Below, piece by piece: positions 3,120 to 32,317 of a DNA stretch of 55,758 bases. The stretch is from a virus. Both the position numbers and the translations under genes were made by a program. The notes below the pieces were generated by a model that worked only from the letters and a program-made list of their open reading frames with translations, was not told the DNA's origin and ran no database searches. Numbering within the stretch: position 1 is the stretch's first letter; each line of letters starts with the position of its first letter. Location of the stretch: positions 1 through 55,758 of the IMG/VR virus record IMGVR_UViG_3300030085_001335. One strand, given 5' to 3'.

Positions 3120-3974
3120 ATGAATCCATATTTATTAGGAGTAACTGCCTTAGGCAATTTAGCAGGAGGAATTTTCAACTATAAACAGCAGCAAAAAGAA
3201 GTTGACAGACAGAAGCAAGCAGCTCAAGATGCTATAAAAGCTGAAGAAGCAAAAGCTAAAGCGGCTAGAGCTGGGATGCCAGATTTTTCTTTAGGTAGAG
3301 GCGCTAGAGATGCTTACATGAGATCACAGCAAGACAGAGCTGGTGACCTAGCGCTTCAAGAAGTTCAGAGAACAGGAGGTGATGCGCTTAGGGCTTTGGA
3401 AGCGGGTGGAGCTAGATCTTTGATGTTTGCACCAACACTGGCTAGAAAAAGTGCGATGGATACAGCTAATCAGTTAGCTGCTCAACAAGGAAGAATGGCA
3501 TTAGGGGCAGAAAAATTTGCAACTAAGGAGCAAAACATACTAGACAAGAATATAACAAATCAAAGAAACCTAGGGATGTATGATTACGGTCAAGCTTTAG
3601 GGAGGAAATTCCAAGCTGAACGAGCATTGAAAGAAGCTGAAGGTATGGGATCTGCACTTTTCTCTAATCTATTATCAGACAGCTTAGGGTCTTTCACTGA
3701 ACTGGGGATGACAGCTGCTGAGGCTTTTCCACTTGATCCTGTGGATAGTTTTGAAAATGGGGCTAAGATAAAAGAAACTCCAGGAGAGTTTTCACACAAA
3801 ACAAACCCTATCGACCTTATAAGAAACGGTAAGAAGATTGGTGAGGCTACAGGAGGGGAGTTAATCTTTAACCCAGAGCAATCTGGAAAGCTTGAACAAC
3901 TTGCATCTGAAGGCAGCACTGATCTACACAGATACTTAAAAGGATTATTTAAGAAGTTTAATACCAAGAAGTAA
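3120..3974 (+). CDS. Internal virion protein-like, Ala/Gln-rich helical protein
   Basis: 284 residues. A short hydrophobic, Gly-rich N-terminus (residues 4-20, LLGVTALGNLAGGIFNY) is followed by a long charged, Ala/Gln/Lys-rich helical stretch to about residue 185. A C-terminal segment with the motif ATGGELIFNPEQSGKLEQLA is of a kind that recurs in phage internal or ejection proteins. It sits after the tail stabilisation gene and before two more very helical proteins, the position of T7 gp14/15/16-like ejected proteins. The stop overlaps the next start (TAATG), so translation is probably coupled. Function is inferred from position and composition. Confidence 0.7.
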   Translation: MNPYLLGVTALGNLAGGIFNYKQQQKEVDRQKQAAQDAIKAEEAKAKAARAGMPDFSLGRGARDAYMRSQQDRAGDLALQEVQRTGGDALRALEAGGARSLMFAPTLARKSAMDTANQLAAQQGRMALGAEKFATKEQNILDKNITNQRNLGMYDYGQALGRKFQAERALKEAEGMGSALFSNLLSDSLGSFTELGMTAAEAFPLDPVDSFENGAKIKETPGEFSHKTNPIDLIRNGKKIGEATGGELIFNPEQSGKLEQLASEGSTDLHRYLKGLFKKFNTKK

Positions 3975-5374
3975 TGTCTACATATTCAATTCAACAGGGT
4001 CTGATGTCTACTAAAGGTTCAGACACTGGCGTTTATGGTGCGAGGCTAAAAGCATTTCAAGAAAACTATAAAAAGCCAGAGTTTGCAGAGATAGCTAAAG
4101 AGTTTAGTGATATAGTTAATGCAGATAAAATTAGAGCTGATAAATTTAAACAAGCTGCTCTTGGATCAAAAGTAAATCCGTCTTCATCAGAACTGTATCA
4201 GTCTCAATATGTATTCGCTAAAAACAAGTTTGATCTTCTTTACAGCGATGAGACTTTACAGCACTATTCAAAATCCCCAGAATTAATGCTTAGGTGGTCG
4301 AACTTAGTTGATGAGCTTTCTGCAGAGATAGATTTATTCGAGGGTATATATGAAGACTCTTTTGGAGACATGAATAATTCTACTGGAAAAGAACCAACAT
4401 ACGCTGGTGGCGTGGCAAGAATGAACCAAGCAGGGAGCAATCAAGCGTATTGGGAAAGCCAAGGATTCGAAGATGTGTCTGGTAAAGATACTAATGAAAC
4501 TATGAAGTTGATTGATCAGCCGTTGCATTATAATATGACATTAGATTTTGAGAATCATTCCTTTAATTATGAGTCAGACTATAAATATATATTAGAGCCA
4601 CAGTCCCCAGCCTTTGCTTCAGAGCTATTTGGTTACAAATTAAAACCAACCAAAGTATTATCTCCTGCTGAGTATGCAGTTAAGACAACTTTTGAGAGTG
4701 CTTTTGAAACAGGAGAAGAAGGGTTTGGCGATTTTCTTAAGAGAATGCATACTGATCCAATGTATTTGAGGTCATCTATTGCTCAGTACATTGAAGACAT
4801 GGATGTAGATGATTACACTGTGGATGACTTCATCAATGGTAATGTTTCTAATGACCACGCTCCTCTAGAACAAATTCTATCTGGTTACGACACGAAGGTG
4901 ATAAATGCATCAGCTGAATTTGCTGAACAAAAAAAACGTAAGAAAAACAAAACTACTGCATCTGAAAAAGCCAATCAAAAAAAAGCGGACTTACTAGCTA
5001 CAACTCTTAAAACTATGGCTGATCAGAGCAGTGTAGAATATACTGATATAGATGACAATTCTACTACGGGTGACATGAAAATTTTTAATCTACTCACCAA
5101 GTCTATTTATATTGAAGACGGAGGGGAAGAATTTAAACTGAAAAGAATAGGTATTGACGATGAGGGTGATCTATATGCTTACTTGATTGAGGAAATTCCA
5201 GATCCAGATCCACAATATGCCACGGTTAGACCTAGAGATGTCCCAACAATAGAAATTGGTAGGTATAAGGAAATAGAAGCTGGAGATAATATTACTAATC
5301 AACTTGAATCTGGTTTAGATGCACTATACGGAACTGGTGCTCTTAAAAAATTCATAGACAAAGCATTAAATTAA
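3974..5374 (+). CDS. Putative internal/ejected virion protein, unknown
   Basis: 466 residues, acidic at the N-terminus and C-terminus, with a Lys-rich coiled segment around residues 315-340 (EQKKRKKNKTTASEKANQKK). No enzyme motif or membrane segment is visible. It starts at the ATG that overlaps the upstream stop and ends 9 bases before the giant protein gene, so the three genes form one unit. By position it is a candidate for a DNA-ejection protein. I do not recognise a family. Confidence 0.7.
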   Translation: MSTYSIQQGLMSTKGSDTGVYGARLKAFQENYKKPEFAEIAKEFSDIVNADKIRADKFKQAALGSKVNPSSSELYQSQYVFAKNKFDLLYSDETLQHYSKSPELMLRWSNLVDELSAEIDLFEGIYEDSFGDMNNSTGKEPTYAGGVARMNQAGSNQAYWESQGFEDVSGKDTNETMKLIDQPLHYNMTLDFENHSFNYESDYKYILEPQSPAFASELFGYKLKPTKVLSPAEYAVKTTFESAFETGEEGFGDFLKRMHTDPMYLRSSIAQYIEDMDVDDYTVDDFINGNVSNDHAPLEQILSGYDTKVINASAEFAEQKKRKKNKTTASEKANQKKADLLATTLKTMADQSSVEYTDIDDNSTTGDMKIFNLLTKSIYIEDGGEEFKLKRIGIDDEGDLYAYLIEEIPDPDPQYATVRPRDVPTIEIGRYKEIEAGDNITNQLESGLDALYGTGALKKFIDKALN

Positions 5375-5383
5375 AATAAAAGC

Positions 5384-8300
5384 ATGAACGAAGAGTTAAG
5401 GCGAATAATAGAAGAATATAATTCAAAGGGTTTTAGTTCAAACAAAATTGCTAACCTTTTGATATACTCTCATGGTATAAAAGATGTAGATAAACAACAG
5501 CTTATTTACATCGTTGATGAGTACAACGCTGGATCGTTGGAGCAAGAACCGCCTCAACAAGAGTCTGATAAAGAGTTAAAAAAAAAAGGACTTGGACAAG
5601 TAGACGGAGAGGTTTACACGTTATTGGGTGCGGAATCGAGTTCTCAAGAGCCTTCTGTGGACTCTACTTTGAGCTTGGATCCTTTAGACTTGAACTTGGA
5701 ATCCGACTTAACTCAAAGAGCTGACGTTACATCACAAGCACCACCTGCTCTTGAAGACCTTCAAGCTAGACCACAAAGCTTTGAGGGAGAAAACATACAA
5801 TCTCTACGCCAAGAGAGGCGTGATTTGGCTGCTGAAATAGAAGCTAAGTCTAAAGAAATATCAAACCTTAAACAAAAGACACCAGATGAATTTGTTTCTG
5901 ATGAAATAAATAAAGCTAAGTTAGAGGGTCTTGAAAAAGAACTTGATGGTCTTGAGGCAGACAAAGAATTCTCTTTGCAGAAAGCAAAGATAAAAAGGGA
6001 AGAAGACTTAAGGTTTTTAGAAGAAAAAGTAAAAGAAGAAGGATTAAGATGGGGGGATGTCCAAAGTGATTATCTAAAAAATGTTGAGGACTTTGATAAA
6101 ATTCAAGACCTTATAGCTGAAAAGAAATCTCAAATTTCTGAAATAGAAGATTCTGCAGAAAGATTTGCAGCTAATGGGTTCGGCAAAAAAGAAAACATTC
6201 TTGCTCTACAGCAGAGTAAAATAGATGAGTTAAACAAAGAGATAAACACTCTGCAGTCAAAATCAGATGATTTTACAGAAAGAGTAGAATCTGGATTGTA
6301 TATTAAAACTAGGAGTGCTTTAAAGAATGTAGCTGGAGGAAGATTTTTTGGGGCTACAATGACTGAAGACGAGGCAAGAAGTCTTGCAGAAGAAGTGCAA
6401 CTCTTAATGAATGAGCCGTCTGTGACTGTTGATCAAGTTTATGAATCAATGGTTAAAGATAACCTTGTTATGATAGACAAGGATGCTGTTTTTCAAGATA
6501 GACTTTATTACGACTTAGGTGTCGCACGTTACGACAAGGAGAATCTTTATAAAGTTGATTACAGAAAAAAAGATCTATCAGATCAATTCAAGATATCTCA
6601 AGAACAATTTTCTGAAAACACAGATGAATACTTATCTAAGGTCCCAGTTGAGCTAAGAAACTTTGAGGACGCTAAGAGTAAGTATAAGTCTATGTATAAC
6701 GTAGACTTAAGTGAAAGTGATTACTTAGATCTTGTTTCTTTTTGGAACTATAGAGATACTGCTTTAAATGCTGTAGAGAATAACGAGTCTATAGAAGATT
6801 CAATAATTAAAGACTATAAGGATTTAATAAAAAACTCAACAGAAGAAAACCTGCAAAGCAATTACTTCAAGTTCTTAAATCAAAACAGACAAGAATTTAA
6901 TCAATACAACAAGAACATAGACATCTTAGGGTATGGAGATAAAGCAGAAAACATAATAGGACTGCTTAATAAATCCCTTAAAGATGATGTCTCTGAAAGC
7001 ATATCAGATGCTTTATTCGCCTATAGAGACAGTGATTACAGACGTGGGTTTGACATGGCAGCTCAAGACAAACTTACTGCATCTACTGTTGTTGAGAGAA
7101 TGTTTACTAAATTCATTTTAAATACAGGGGCAAATGTTCTTGATTACTTCGACATGCTACAGGACTATGAGAAAGAAGATGATGATAGTCCTTGGTGGAA
7201 CTTGCTTTACCTAACCCCAGCAGCTGGAGCAAAAGCTTTTGCGGATCTTGGAGGAGGTGAAGGTATAATCGACTTTCAAAATATTTCAACCAAGTCCAAA
7301 GAGATTGCACGAGGTATTGAAGAATATGATAGAATAAATATGGGGTTAACATTGACTGACTCTCAGAAAGAAATAAGTCAGTTAATAGCGGAAGGTAATT
7401 ATGGTGCTTCTGTGAAAAAGGGAGTTATAGGTGTATCAAATATAATCCCTCAAATTGCTTTGGTAATTGCTGCTCCAGAGTTAGCTATACCATTGTTTGG
7501 TGTGTCTTCAGCTGGTGGTATGTACTCAGAGATACAAGATCTAGACCACATAACATACGGAGAAAAAGTTCGTGCCTCTGTGATAATGGGTGCAGCTGAG
7601 GCTGCTACAGAATATTTATTTAGAGGTCAAGAAGTTGTAATTAAAGAGATAGCAAAGAATGTACTTAAAAGAAAAGCTCTAGGTAAAGGCATTCTAGATG
7701 AGGCTGCAAAGAAAGCAATAGCTAAGCAAGCCAATACGATGTTTAAGTTCAATCCAAAATCGAAGGGTGGGAAGATGTTCTTAAAAGGATTGCAGTTCCA
7801 AGAAGAAGGTGTTGAAGAGCTTATAGTTGATGTGGTTGATCAAAACATTACAAACTATCTAGAGAAAAAAAGTTTAAACGAAGAGCATTTTGATCTAAAG
7901 TACAACCTAGAAGATGCACCAAACTCAATAGTTAGGGAACAGATACTAGACGAGATACAAGCCAACAGAGAAAGCTACAGCGAGATTGGTTACAACATCT
8001 ATCAAACGATGGACTCGTATGGTCTAGGTTTAATTGGTGCTGGAGGACCTTTAATGCTTACAAGGTCGTTGGGGTATATAGCATCTCCTGGTAAAATAAA
8101 ATCAAGGATTCAAATATCTAAAAGGATTACAGAACTTGACAAGCTCATAAAGGAAGAGGTAGATATGGGTGAGAGAATCAAGTTGAAATCAGAGAAGGCT
8201 GAATTAATTAGGAAGCAGTTCTCTGATGTTGCTATGGATCAACAGCTTCTAGAGAAAATGAGTGAGGCTGATGTAGACGAACTTATAAAACTTAATCACG

Positions 8301-11300
8301 AAATATCTAAAGCTAGATTTTCATCTAGAAAACTTAGATCAATGATTAACGAGAGCATGTCTCAAGAGGAGCAGGATAGGATTTATGAGTCTATAATGAA
8401 GAATGCTGCGAAAGCAAAGAAAGCTCTTGAGTCTAAGACAGAAATATATGACAGGTATAATACGGAACAAAACAAGTTAGATCAAAACTCATTGACGGAT
8501 GAAGAGTTGGCTCTTGTTAATGAGATTGAATCTTTAGATACTGAGATTGACACATTCGATTCTGTACCTAATAGCGATGGTTTTATTGATGTAACACTTG
8601 AGAATGTTAACAGCGTAATAGACAAGCTGTTATCATCGTCAATCATAAAGTCAACTAGGTTTTCAACTGCTCAGCAAATAAAAGATGGTCTTAGGAACGT
8701 AGCTAAGATTGTTAAAGAAGTAAAGTCTGCTGGTGGATCAGTTAGAATATTTACTAATAAAAAAGATTTTGAAAGAGTTACTGGTCAATCTATAGCAAGA
8801 GGTTTGCATACAGAGGGGAAAGGGAAAGACTCTATTGTTAGTTTGTACCTACCTGCCTTAAGAGCAAACACATCTTATCATGAGGCATTTCATGACATAG
8901 TATTGAGAAAGCTGGGGGCTGGTAAGATTCAAGAACTTGCTTTGTCATTAGCTAAAGCTATACCAAATGATCTTATCAGCAAGTATGTGACAGTGATGGA
9001 GCTTACTGAACAGCAACTGATAGACGTAAAAGACTTAAAAGGGTATGACCTCCTTAAGTATATTATCAGTGAAGATAAGGGTAGGGCTGAAGAGTTTCTT
9101 GTTGAGGTTCTTGCAGACATAAGTAATGGTGATTACTCCATCTCATTTAAGAATGGTCTTATACAGAACCTAAAAGAGTTTGTTGCTAAGTTCTTTGGCA
9201 CTACGTTCAAGGACCCAAAAATAAAGGATGTAGTAAGTGCTATTAAAACAGCTACAGAACAGCTAGCTGAAGGTGAGCAAGTAACAGCATTAGATGAGAT
9301 AGGTAGAGAAGGTGAGACAGAAGCTGATTCATCAAAAAGAAACAGAGCTAAGAAACAAGTGATAGGTGAGAATGCTGAACTAGCTGCTTACGAACTAGGT
9401 ATGTTAAATGAGGCACTCGCAATGGAGAAGGAAGGGTATACTTCAAAGGTAATATTCTCTTCTACTGGATGGGAGAAGGGTGCAGACGGAAAGTGGAGAA
9501 TGCTTATCACTGAAGGGATAGAAGATTACTACGATATAGGTTTAGATATACAAGAAGAGCTCCTTAATACTAAAATAGAAACAGGTTTTGATGAAGAAAC
9601 TGGGATGGAGATTGAATTTGGAGGAACGAAAGTAACTAAAAAAGGCGAAGAGGTCATACCAGAGTCTATATTAAATCTATACCCAGCTCTAAAAGATATA
9701 AATATAACATTTCATAAAGACGTACTTCCATTCGATAAGACTGGAAAGGTTAAAGGTCAATATCGCGTAGGTAGCTTTTTACCCAAAAAGGAAATAGACC
9801 CACTCTCCACCCTTATCGATTTAGGATTAGGTAATACCGTTATCGATATTGCTGTTGAAATAGAATATTTTGATTTAAAAAAGGGTGACAACATAGATGA
9901 TTACTATGAGTCAATGGGTTTGTTCCCAGAACATTCATTGACATTAGCTCATGAGGTTCAACACGCTATTCAAGAAATAGAAGGCTTTCAAGGAGGTGCG
10001 ACCATGAGCAGGGGTGAAACAGCACCTATGGTGTACTCATATCAATTGTTTAATGATAAAGGAAGTGATGCGCCTAAGGTAGAAAACATTGTTGTTGAAG
10101 AAAAGCAAAACGAGAATGGAGAAACTGTTTACTCTGTTGTTGACAATAACAATACAGCTGTATACAAAGAATATGGTGAGTTCAACACTAAGGAGGAAGC
10201 AGAGTCAGTAAGAGAAAAAGTAGTTGGTGATTTTAAAACAAAATCTGAACTGCTTACAAAACGATTCCCAGACTTTTCTATTGAATCAATGAAAGATGAA
10301 GAGATTTCTAGACAAGTAAGATATCTCTTTTATAAATCAATAATGGGTGAAGTAGAGGCAAGGTCTGTATCAGAAATGATGGAGATGACGGATCCTCAAC
10401 AGAGAGAATCTATGAGTCCATCAGAACTACTGGAGCTTGTTAATGATGGTGATGCAGTTATAATTCAGAGAGGTGTTTCAAAGAAGCAAACTATAGGTGA
10501 TGAAGGTTCTGATTCTGATTTTGATTTCGTTGATACGTCCATGGATCCTCGTCAAGATTCTAGTAAAAAGCTCAGACAAACTATTGCAACTGCTATAGAG
10601 AAATACCCTTCACTAAGAGAAGAGATGCTGGCTAATCCAGATAACTACATAACTCCTCAGAATCTAGAAGAACTAAGAGCTACTCTTAACGATGAGAATG
10701 TTACCGATGCTGATCTTATCGACATGATGACAGATGATGGTTTGGGTAGATTGCAAAACAGAAATGATGACTTGGCTATACTAGCTCTTAACGAGTTGAT
10801 AAACAGAGCCTTAGATGCAGGGGACATGGAGGCGGTTAGTAAATACGAGACAAACAGGGCTCAGATTGGAACGACTGCTGGTAGGATGCTCAGACATCTT
10901 AGAGCATTGAAGTCAACAACACCTTCTGGTTTATTAAGACAAATAGAATTAGAGATTTCTAAAAGAGGTAATACTATCACTGATAAACAACGTGATAAAT
11001 TGCTAGATAAATTAACTAACGTAGTTAAACTGAATAAAGACTACAAAAAGAAAGCACTGGAGTTAGCTAACATGGATACTGTTAACGACCAGATTGAAAA
11101 GGAATTTAAAGATCTAGAGGAAGAAATATTCAGTGCAGAAAAAGATCTAAACATATATCTTCAGAATATAGTTGAGAAAAGTTGGGGGGAGATATACAGA
11201 ACTCTTCAGCAGGGTAATTTGATTACTTTTATATCTCAAGGAGCTAACATAGGTGGTAACATTGTAAACATATTCGGTGATTTTTGGGTGAGCGCTATAG

Positions 11301-24575: not shown

Positions 24576-24644
24576 CTTTACTTGTGGTAACCCCACAACT
24601 TTACCTATGGGGACCCCACAACTTTATCTGTGGTAACCCCACAA
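24576..24644. repeat. Three tandem 23-bp iteron-like repeats with internal dyad
   Basis: Copies at 24576-24598, 24599-24621 and 24622-24644 follow each other with no gap. Consensus CTTTAnCTGTGGTAACCCCACAA is 23 bp. Copies 1 and 3 carry the inverted arms GTGG/CCAC (TTGTGG...CCACAA in copy 1). Copy 2 varies in the middle (TATGGGGACC). The arms resemble a shortened DnaA box (TTACCACA against TTATCCACA). Exact 23-bp phasing, about two helical turns, suggests a protein array such as an origin or operator. Confidence 0.85.
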
Positions 24645-24657
24645 CTTTTGAAAAACC

Positions 24658-28794: not shown

Positions 28795-29073
28795 TTAATT
28801 TTTTAGGAAAGAATCCCAGTCTACTCCAAGCGCACCATCGTGCTTAGATACGTGAAGGTCGTACAGTATTATAGCTACGTCTTGAACGTTACTGTCTTCG
28901 ATGGTTTTTATCTTATCTAAGATCGCTTGCTTCTTTGTTTCTTCTCTGTTATATACAGAGCTATCGCTTGAATACTGGTAGTAAAAGTCAAGTTCTCCTA
29001 GGTCTTGGTTTAGCTTTGCTAAGAAATCCATGTCCTCTGTAGAGGGTTTCCAGTTTTCGTCTCTTGTACTCAT
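28795..29073 (-). CDS. Hypothetical early protein behind the tRNA-like minihelix
   Basis: 92 residues, acidic, helical (TEDMDFLAKLNQDLGELDFYY, DKIKTIEDSNVQDVAIILYDL). No family recognised. Its leader is notable: the conserved early leader at 29074-29100 is joined directly to the CCA end of the tRNA-like element at 29102-29146, so its mRNA may be defined by RNA processing. Confidence 0.65.
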   Translation of the reverse strand: MSTRDENWKPSTEDMDFLAKLNQDLGELDFYYQYSSDSSVYNREETKKQAILDKIKTIEDSNVQDVAIILYDLHVSKHDGALGVDWDSFLKN

Positions 29074-29101
29074 AGGTATGTATGTTTTAATTTTTGAATT
29101 T

Positions 29102-29146
29102 TGGAATCGGCAAGGGAATCGAACCCCTCATGCACCATGACCGATT
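29102..29146 (-). ncRNA. tRNA-like minihelix (acceptor stem, 4-bp arm, T-arm, encoded CCA)
   Basis: Minus strand, 5' to 3'. 29146-29140 AATCGGT pairs with 29111-29105 GCCGATT (7 bp, last pair T.G). 29139-29129 forms CATG-GTG-CATG. 29128-29112 is AGGGG-TTCGATT-CCCTT, a T-arm with the canonical 7-base TTCRANN loop. CCA follows at 29104-29102. There is no sequence for D or anticodon arms, and no tRNA 5' half upstream. Acceptor-plus-T-arm RNAs with 3' CCA are known minimal RNase P substrates, so a processing signal or tRNA mimic is likely. An attP derived from a tRNA 3' end is the alternative, but no integrase was seen. Confidence 0.75.
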
Positions 29147-29156
29147 GATTGACTGC

Positions 29157-29501
29157 TTATAGCGAATCAAAGATTTTTGCCGCCCTTTGCCTAGACTCAT
29201 CCTTTGCATCCCATTCAGCATCTCTAAGGTCATACGTCCTCTTGATATACCATCTACGTAACGTATCTACGTCCTCTGTTGAGACGATATGCTCTTTAAA
29301 TGCATACCCACCATCTATGTACATTACTGCCGACAATATGATCGGACAAGAGGACTCTCTTGTAATTTCTGAAAACATACAATGCAGTTCTAGACGTACG
29401 TCATGACCGTCTACATTACCGCTTAGGCTCATGTTATCCAACGCTTTCTTGTTGAATTCAGTCCATTCTACCTTGTTTAATTTGTTAATTAAGTATTCCA
29501 T
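29157..29501 (-). CDS. Hypothetical protein between ribozyme and minihelix
   Basis: 114 residues. N-terminal basic helix (LINKLNKVEWTEFNKKALD), then beta-type strands (GNVDGHDVRLELHCMF, PIILSAVMYIDGGYAFKEHIV) and a charged C-terminus. Its leader (ATTCAAAATCAAATATT) starts right after helix II of the hammerhead ribozyme, so the mature mRNA would begin with the cut ribozyme's helix I. Function unknown. Confidence 0.65.
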   Translation of the reverse strand: MEYLINKLNKVEWTEFNKKALDNMSLSGNVDGHDVRLELHCMFSEITRESSCPIILSAVMYIDGGYAFKEHIVSTEDVDTLRRWYIKRTYDLRDAEWDAKDESRQRAAKIFDSL

Positions 29502-29526
29502 AATATTTGATTTTGAATGTTAGTTT

Positions 29527-29586
29527 GTCTCATCAGTACAAAGAGAACTACTCTTTGTAGACAACCCCTAAGGGTTGTTTCGACTA
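29527..29586 (-). ncRNA. Type II hammerhead self-cleaving ribozyme
   Basis: Minus strand, 5' to 3'. Helix II strand GTC (29584-29582) is followed by GAA (29581-29579). Helix III is ACAACCC-TTAG-GGGTTGT (29578-29561) and begins with the required A15.1-U16.1 pair. The cleavage-site C17 is at 29560, giving the GUC triplet. Helix I is TACAAAGAG-TAGTT-CTCTTTGTA (29559-29537), 9 perfect pairs. The core CTGATGA (29536-29530) follows, then helix II strand GAC (29529-29527). Every invariant core nucleotide is present in the right order. Helix II is the open helix, so this is type II. The stop codon TAG of the upstream gene (29586-29584) donates the first G of helix II. Predicted cut: between 29560 and 29559. 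Confidence 0.93.
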
Positions 29587-29943
29587 TTCCATATCTAACC
29601 ATACAGGGTATGGGTTGCCACTATTCGAAGAGATTTTGTATACACAATAGCTACCGCTATTGCTTATGTATACCTTCCTACCTTCGTGAGTATGTGGTGT
29701 GGACTTACCTACCCAAACTGCGTAGTCGTTTCCAGTTCTCGGAGACTTACATTTTATGTAAGTGCTACCCTTGTTAGTCTCAAAGAGACTGAAAGTCGTA
29801 CCATCAATGTTAATTGATCTGCCAGTTGATAGACCGCTTTCGACATTGAATCCACCTCCCTTGGAGGTTTTAGATACGAATGTCTGAGTGAAGGCAGTAA
29901 TAGATATCGCTACCAAAGCCAAAGTGAAAATTGCTTTTTTCAT
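29584..29943 (-). CDS. Exported early protein with signal peptide
   Basis: 119 residues. Residues 1-20 (MKKAIFTLALVAISITAFTQ) are a textbook Sec signal peptide with cleavage after TAFT or AFTQ. The mature part is Gly/Ser/Thr-rich and beta-like with three cysteines in total (KCKSPRTGNDYAVWVG, SYCVYKISS). It would act in the periplasm or at the surface. An early exported protein is unusual and suggests superinfection exclusion or envelope modification, but no family is recognised. The stop codon overlaps helix II of the hammerhead ribozyme. Confidence 0.75.
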   Translation of the reverse strand: MKKAIFTLALVAISITAFTQTFVSKTSKGGGFNVESGLSTGRSINIDGTTFSLFETNKGSTYIKCKSPRTGNDYAVWVGKSTPHTHEGRKVYISNSGSYCVYKISSNSGNPYPVWLDME

Positions 29944-30399: not shown

Positions 30400-30531
30400 T
30401 TATGCAAGCTCTTGTTCTACGTACATCTGCTCTTCGCAGGTAAGTACGTCCCATTCTAGGGTGTTGATTGCCATTTCGAAGTCTAGCCCATCGAAGATGG
30501 ATGCAAGTTGGTTTAGCTTTTGCTCGTTCAT
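30400..30531 (-). CDS. Hypothetical 43-residue early protein
   Basis: 43 residues, starting MNEQKLNQLASIFDGLDFEM and ending EEQMYVEQELA, strongly acidic and helical. The start is set by the conserved leader that ends CATACATACCT before the ATG at 30531, and by promoter 30582. Small acidic early proteins sometimes mimic DNA or bind host enzymes; nothing here proves that. Confidence 0.55.
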   Translation of the reverse strand: MNEQKLNQLASIFDGLDFEMAINTLEWDVLTCEEQMYVEQELA

Positions 30532-30567
30532 AGGTATGTATGTTTTATTTTTGAAGTTGTCGGAATA

Positions 30568-30659: not shown

Positions 30660-31274
30660 TTAAAACGGGCAATCGCTTGTGTCGATGTCTGCATCTGAGT
30701 ACATAGGTGCACCATCAGCGAGTGCATCCTGCTCAGCTACGTACCTAGCGTGTCTAGCTGCTTCAATTGGGCATTGTCCGATCTCTAAATCAAACGGCAG
30801 GACTGCTTGCTTATTTGAGACTTTCTTAGCCTTCGGCTCATCCGTAGGTAGGTATGTCTGAGCAAGCCCTCTCGAAGCCCTTTGGGCTTGAACTTCTAGC
30901 TTTTGATTGCTAGTCAGCTTCGCTGGAGGGTTAGAGACTTTCTTTCTTCGGCTAGAAGTCTTTGACTTCTTTTTCGAAGTCTTCGACTTCGTTTTTGAAT
31001 CAACCTTTGGTTGATCAACGCCTACCTTCGCTAGAGCTTCGGCAACCGCTTTCTCAATCATAGATTGAACATCTGGAGTTTCAACCTTTTTTTGTTGCTT
31101 CGCAACATGCTTCGAAGTTTTCAGCCCTTTCACGAAGGTATGTAGCGCCTTGACCGCATCAAGGGCTTCGTTCTTAGCTTCCTCGCTTGGAATAAAGCAA
31201 GCTTTATTTATAGACTTCTGAGCATCTTTGATGAGGCTTGTTCTAGCCTCGTTGTCAAAACCGTAGGTTTTCAT
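30660..31274 (-). CDS. Lys/Ala-rich early protein, first gene of the early arm
   Basis: 204 residues from the ATG at 31274; the sequence upstream of it is the conserved leader and promoter, not coding. Helical N-terminal 90 residues, then a very basic low-complexity linker (about 90-120, KTKSKTSKKKSKTSSRRKK) and a C-terminal part with PFDLEIGQCPIEAARHARYV and an acidic DTSDCPF tail. The basic linker suggests nucleic acid binding. As the first-expressed gene it is a candidate host takeover factor. No family recognised. Confidence 0.65.
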   Translation of the reverse strand: MKTYGFDNEARTSLIKDAQKSINKACFIPSEEAKNEALDAVKALHTFVKGLKTSKHVAKQQKKVETPDVQSMIEKAVAEALAKVGVDQPKVDSKTKSKTSKKKSKTSSRRKKVSNPPAKLTSNQKLEVQAQRASRGLAQTYLPTDEPKAKKVSNKQAVLPFDLEIGQCPIEAARHARYVAEQDALADGAPMYSDADIDTSDCPF

Positions 31275-31300
31275 AGGTATGTATGTTTTTATTTTGAGCG
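31275..31300 (-). promoter_or_regulatory. Conserved early-gene leader (one of at least ten copies)
   Basis: The leader reads CGCTCAAAATAAAAA then CATACATACCT before the ATG. Related leaders precede 30531 (CTTCAAAAATAAAA, CATACATACCT), 30349, 29943, 29501, 29073, 28773, 27809, 27417 and 26259. They share TCAAAATYAAA and, in the longer class, repeats of CATA. Bacteroidota ribosomes rely on A-rich leaders rather than Shine-Dalgarno pairing, so this is probably a translation-initiation element, possibly also an RNA-binding site. Confidence 0.65.
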
Positions 31301-32190: not shown

Positions 32191-32282
32191 ACCTCTACCT
32201 ATATATGTTCTGTATTTCGTACCCTCTCTCTATATATGTTATGCATTCTGTACCTTCTCTCTATATATGTGGTGCTTTTCGT
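32191..32282 (+). repeat. Three tandem 30-31 bp direct repeats
   Basis: Units at 32191-32220, 32221-32251 and 32252-32282 share ACC(T/C)TCTCTCTATATATGT, then a variable part ending (T/C)GT. The array is just upstream of the first late promoter (32318). Unit lengths of 30-31 bp are about three helical turns, so identical faces are presented. There are no spacers, so this is not a CRISPR array. A protein-binding or AT-rich unwinding array is possible. Confidence 0.75.
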
Positions 32283-32317
32283 ACCTAATGTCTAAACAGA
32301 GGCAGTCTTATAATTAA

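Follow-up and report, generated by a model that had tools for sequence, protein, structure and literature searches.

What does a self-cleaving RNA do in the narrow gap between two genes of a phage operon? The question is raised by a 55.8-kb virus record, the whole of which we refer to as the window, whose minus strand had been predicted to carry a complete type II hammerhead ribozyme, with every core part in place, directly behind the gene of an exported protein. A search of the whole window against all Rfam families returned the type II hammerhead family RF02276 at this position with 47.9 bits (E 8.7e-07), above the gathering cut-off of 37 bits, and both this match and the sequence itself bear out the predicted parts and their positions (Table 1). 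It was the sole match above any family's gathering score, permissive matches to other Rfam RNA families in the window all lying under the curated family scores. The match is far above chance: our own core-and-helix descriptor gave the ribozyme a score of 21.5, whereas the highest score among 60 Markov-shuffled versions of the window was 15.0, and no second hammerhead was found in the window, either by the descriptor or above the Rfam cut-off.

The invariant type II core is complete, comprising CUGAUGA (consensus CUGANGA), GAAA, the NUH cleavage triplet GUC and the A29578-U29561 pair that opens helix III, and the permutation is that of type II, with helices I and III closed by loops and helix II (GUC/GAC) open. 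The tail AACUA is complementary to loop I (UAGUU), giving a pseudoknot that was overlooked in the original prediction; contact between loop I and the tail is a known tertiary feature of type II hammerheads (PMC3088659). Helix II is just 3 bp long and relies on this pseudoknot, and the minimum-energy fold contains helices I and III without the exact helix II, which counts against a functional reading. The lowest-energy fold instead pairs GUUAG of the 5' flank with CUAAC of the tail, a pairing that we dropped because it is not conserved: the relative L002 has GTTAG, and its tail is without CUAAC. No terminator-like site was reported on the minus strand near 29500-29590. Judged from its sequence, the element is a genuine type II hammerhead of the known class RF02276, predicted to cleave itself.

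Table 1. Features of the ribozyme and the two genes that flank it, in window coordinates.
Feature	Position	Strand	Details	Basis
Upstream gene, 119 aa	29584..29943	minus	N-terminal signal-peptide-like stretch; ends in UAG 29586-29584	ORF
Stop codon UAG	29586-29584	minus		sequence
Stop UAG and helix II 5' strand, overlap	29582..29586	minus	shared base G29584	
Helix II	GUC 29584-29582 with GAC 29529-29527	minus	3 bp, open helix	
GAAA	29581-29578	minus		
Helix III hairpin	29561..29578	minus	7 bp, loop UUAG; ACAACCC 29578-29572 with GGGUUGU 29567-29561	sequence and fold
Cleavage triplet GUC	29562-29560	minus		hammerhead consensus
Predicted cut	29560/29559	minus	24 nt past the stop codon	hammerhead consensus
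Helix I hairpin	29537..29559	minus	9 bp, loop UAGUU; UACAAAGAG 29559-29551 with CUCUUUGUA 29545-29537	sequence and fold
Core CUGAUGA	29536-29530	minus		sequence
Pseudoknot	AACUA 29521..29525 with loop I UAGUU 29550-29546	minus	5 bp	
Type II hammerhead ribozyme	29519..29585	minus	RF02276 extent	Rfam
Downstream gene, 114 aa	29157..29501	minus	no assigned function; AUG 58 nt past the predicted cut	ORF

The ribozyme sits in a phage of marine-type Bacteroidota, within a minus-strand block (about 13.8 to 31.3 kb) that holds replication and nucleotide genes together with many small genes without assigned function, and whose kin are phages of Flavobacteriia (Flavobacterium, Cellulophaga, Maribacter). 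On the same strand, the block encodes a DnaB-like helicase with a BT4734-like N-terminal domain, the large and small subunits of ribonucleotide reductase, a DnaA C-terminal domain and ERF, a gene content from which we call the operon early; the original prediction had also placed the ribozyme in an early operon. The 119-aa protein encoded upstream of the ribozyme has no Pfam family and a weak match to PHROG 16207, a group whose function is not assigned; its homologues lie on seven contigs of IMG/VR and on three from bacterial genomes. Among named phages, neither this gene nor the same ribozyme sequence gave more than short chance matches, and no relatives of the downstream 114-aa gene were found in IMG/VR. 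A-rich leaders stand before several early genes, the one behind the ribozyme among them, with the motifs CAAAATAAAACATACATACCTATG and TTCAAAATCAAATA recurring at 29069-29096, 30527-30554, 31270-31297 and 29504-29527 of the window. Behind the downstream gene, at 29100-29150 of the minus strand, lies a sequence that resembles the 3' half of a tRNA (AAUCGG ... GGGGUUCGAUUCCC ... CCGAUUCCA); it was recognised neither by ARAGORN nor by Rfam, has a fold z-score of -0.34 and no match in IMG/VR, and is possibly a tRNA remnant or an attachment-site-like piece.

The predicted cut falls exactly where it had been foreseen, behind the stop and outside both frames, so that neither reading frame would be damaged and the message would be split between the exported-protein gene and the next gene. 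We consider it probable that the ribozyme acts as a self-cleaving gene separator in a polycistronic early phage transcript, folding in the gap between the two co-transcribed genes and cutting there. Because helices I and III are capped by loops in the type II permutation and helix II is open, such a cut would put a hairpin on both products. At the 3' end of the upstream mRNA this would be helix III, with a 2',3'-cyclic phosphate; at the 5' end of the downstream mRNA it would be helix I, with a 5'-OH, ahead of the leader and the AUG. These ends should let the two mRNAs have separate lifetimes and be translated separately, and the separator would then shape the 3' end of the upstream message and at the same time serve the downstream gene as a natural counterpart of the synthetic insulator RiboJ. 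Against this reading stands the single ribozyme in an operon of about 18 kb, in which most genes are therefore not separated by a ribozyme. The chemistry of 2',3'-cyclic phosphate and 5'-OH ends also permits their joining, and some phage contigs carry tandem hammerheads, both of which would suit a source of circular or trans-ligated RNA. With one hammerhead in the window, however, no unit-length fragment would be released, and Perreault et al. sought circular or spliced products of prophage hammerheads and found none (PMC3088659), which makes such a source highly improbable.

The main reason for reading the element as a device for 3'-end formation and separation comes from the same locus in relatives. 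A type II hammerhead starts at the stop of the same gene in L002 (82% protein identity) and in L003 and L004 (57%), where the fold is held with altered stem letters on both sides, that is, with compensatory change. The pseudoknot covaries as well, UAGUU/AACUA in the window corresponding to UGGCU/AGCCA in L002 and to UUCAGC/GCUGAA in L003 and L004; in the latter two the stop is UAA and the ribozyme scores 36.3 bits, slightly below the Rfam cut-off. This conservation with different letters, together with the complete consensus core and pseudoknot, favours the gene separator. In other relatives that keep the gene, the place of the ribozyme is taken by another structure. The more distant L128 and L129 (46% identity), whose ribozyme stretches are identical to each other, carry a type I hammerhead that starts 3 nt past the stop (descriptor score 19.0; not reported by the Rfam scan), and L126 and L127 (47-48% identity) have no hammerhead and a 13-bp terminator-like hairpin followed by TTTTTT in L126 or TCTTTTT in L127. 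The original prediction had held that loss of the core nucleotides beside a retained gene would speak against it; the core is thus kept in three relatives and replaced in these four.

Structures were also seen behind homologues in bacterial genomes. L389, a contig of an Aquimarina genome, has a strong hairpin at the same place (z -4.2) without a U-tail, and the Ekhidna MAG contig L388 shows, at 5385-5465 (+) directly behind the homologous exported gene, a possible tRNA-like fold (T-arm GGGGGUUCGAUUCCCCC, acceptor GGUGUA/UGCACC), which ARAGORN did not call and which is not significant as a fold. The downstream gene changes between groups of relatives and the upstream gene stays; the constant unit is thus the upstream gene plus a 3' structure whose kind is exchangeable, and the presence of other 3' structures at the same place supports the gene separator. 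Two observations weigh on the other side: in the partial homologue on the bacterial genome contig L390 a gap of only 5 nt, which holds no structure, separates the stop from the following AUG, and relatives that contain a DUF7178 gene are mostly without a hammerhead in the stretch covered. An exchange between hammerhead types or a terminator-like hairpin at one gene end was not described in the openly accessible literature that we searched.

Further hammerheads were noted in several of these genomes. L002, the closest relative, carries a type I hammerhead at 4172-4221 (+), with 28.5 bits (cut-off 34), that overlaps the UAA stop of another early gene (111 aa), so that this phage group uses both permutations. 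L254, a relative found through its DUF7178 gene, has two type I hammerheads (2052-2105 and 3182-3231, both +), each about 10 nt past a gene stop, and a type I hammerhead lies just behind a 109-aa ORF at 4544-4597 (+) of L390, from an Aquimarina algiphila genome, where the Rfam type I model did not report it.

The base shared between stop and ribozyme was then viewed across phages at large. Two pattern scans of IMG/VR yielded a set of at least 262 type II hammerheads, all distinct and all lying away from contig ends, and a sample of the scanned loci was confirmed with Rfam; a stop was counted as the end of an ORF of at least 50 aa, the ORFs being called mechanically and the longest candidate taken. 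Among the matches listed, a stop lies 4-22 nt before GAAA in 209 of 262 (80%), compared with 5.5% at random points on the same strands, and 84% of the 262 have an AUG no more than 45 nt past CUGAUGA, compared with 24% in the null. Open frames of at least 100 codons cross the cut in 44 of the 323 type II hammerheads of the descriptor set, and in 45% at random places; the cleavage triplet is GUC in 315 of the same 323. The commonest position has the third base of the stop as the first base of helix II (66 cases among the 323), with almost none deeper, and the window ribozyme has exactly this arrangement. The claim that the stop supplies the first G of helix II is correct, G29584 being common to UAG and GUC; the interlock of coding and catalysis that was drawn from it stands as a one-base overlap, but is not special to this phage.

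Where the stop overlaps helix II pair 3 among the matches listed, UAG accounts for 33 of 39 stops; at all other positions it accounts for 44 of 170 (Fisher p=1.3e-11). In 38 of the 39 the third base of the stop forms a pair with its partner in helix II (UAG with C in 33, UAA with U in 5; the remaining one is UAA with A), so that the stop base is a working base of helix II. The inclusion of a stop base in helix II is a general habit of phage hammerheads, and both the sharpness of the placement and the preference for UAG imply selection; neither the stop-codon rule nor the UAG preference was described in the openly accessible literature searched. A place next to a stop is the usual one in phages probably because the ribozymes cut one long message into gene messages, and the tightest possible packing of genes and ribozyme would explain why helix II takes in the last base of the stop. 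The position between a stop and an AUG in the type II hammerheads listed, seldom crossed by long frames, favours the gene separator, as does the presence of several hammerheads on one contig, up to nine. By our descriptor, the viral contigs L140, L025, L265 and L331 carry seven to nine each.

The placement also bears on what else the ribozyme could be for. The AUG is close by, at a median of about 20 nt after the ribozyme, and joint conservation with the ribozyme is as frequent for the downstream as for the upstream gene across the wider set (38 compared with 33 pairs), as would be expected if the purpose were a RiboJ-like leader with a 5'-OH and a hairpin for the downstream gene, the upstream 3' end being incidental. 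We think this unlikely, since it is the upstream gene that is the constant partner in the window phage group, while the downstream gene varies, and since relatives have a terminator-like hairpin at the same place. The patchy occurrence among relatives and the mosaic neighbourhoods might suggest a neutral or selfish passenger that moves between phage genomes at gene borders without benefit at the locus, yet core and pseudoknot persist, with compensatory change, from 82 down to 57% protein identity, the ribozymes follow a sharp rule of placement and prefer UAG, and mosaicism at hammerhead junctions does not significantly exceed that at other junctions between genes; such a passenger is very improbable. 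The idea of hammerheads as gene-swap points found no support either: both neighbours are conserved in 9.8% of hammerhead pairs and in 14.8% of pairs at other junctions (p=0.5).

A ribosome with a stop codon in its A site covers about 10 nt beyond the stop. One terminating at the UAG of the window would cover the 5' strand of helix II, the GAAA and the start of helix III, so that termination and folding should exclude each other, and most type II hammerheads of phages have a stop that either runs into helix II or directly adjoins it. The ribozyme could then act as a switch, heavy translation of the upstream gene blocking the cut and keeping one mRNA, and low translation allowing it. Type I hammerheads, however, also lie directly behind stops (65%, null 7.7%), a position in which the ribosome would cover different parts of the ribozyme, and the common factor may therefore be packing alone; moreover, hammerheads can fold co-transcriptionally, ahead of the first ribosome at the stop, and tight packing with reuse of the UAG base suffices for the geometry. 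We regard such a switch as rather unlikely, and a link between translation and cleavage in the window phage, possible on geometry, as having a slender chance. If phage type II hammerheads as a class were built onto stops and held open by the terminating ribosome, which seems quite doubtful, upstream translation would decide whether an mRNA is cut, and translation-gated RNA scissors would be widespread in phages. The stop overlap also offers a precise one-base handle on the interaction between translation and ribozyme folding.

The gene separator is in line with work on prophage hammerheads, three sets of which cleave themselves in vitro, the Agrobacterium set also in E. coli, and for which Perreault et al. 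(2011) had already suggested that phage transcripts are processed into mRNAs of gene length (PMC3088659). The window ribozyme shares with the bacterial and prophage type II members of RF02276 described there the permutation, the core, the loop I-tail pseudoknot, the phage context and the intergenic position; that paper describes neither the abutment or overlap of stop codon and helix II, nor the quantitative rule for it, nor the preference for UAG, and the phrase 'stop codon' is absent from its text. The tandem hammerheads of prophages in Agrobacterium tumefaciens, Azorhizobium caulinodans and Clostridium scindens (PMC3088659) also lie between phage genes, but there several ribozymes flank the genes, whereas the window has a single one. 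The RiboJ insulator also speaks for the gene separator: in E. coli it increases the abundance of transcripts about twofold, and once it is cut the downstream mRNA carries a 5' hairpin as its leader (PMC6206723), as predicted for the window; RiboJ is, however, the hammerhead of the viral satellite sTRSV with an added hairpin, placed after a promoter, and the window element is a natural type II hammerhead between two genes. Theta ribozymes of gut phages are likewise self-cleaving phage ribozymes, but are HDV-like, with a different fold, and tied to tRNAs and recoding (PMC10879173).

What prokaryotic hammerheads do biologically was described as an open question in a 2017 review (PMC6155905). The rule of a stop before and an AUG after, the match of stop identity to helix II and the exchange of 3' structures point to mRNA separation and 3'-end formation, and the placement rule makes this role testable in cultured phages. 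One such phage is Brevibacillus phage Emery, which carries an unannotated type II hammerhead (L387, 1507-1565), under the Rfam cut-off, in which the UAG of gp73 overlaps helix II by one base as in the window; its neighbouring genes are unrelated to those of the window. The same is true of the genes of Anoxybacillus phage A403, also cultured, which has an Rfam type II match of 39.7 bits.

Other RNA-like and repetitive elements were seen in the same material. L126 and L127, which carry the exported gene, contain tmRNA-like genes beside tRNAs (9436-9883, 98.8 bits, and 10124-10515, 83 bits, respectively). The window itself has a tandem repeat of three 27-nt copies with a spacing of 23 nt at 24576-24648, and another of three 39-nt copies with a spacing of 31 nt at 32194-32294, in the divergent region between two gene blocks.
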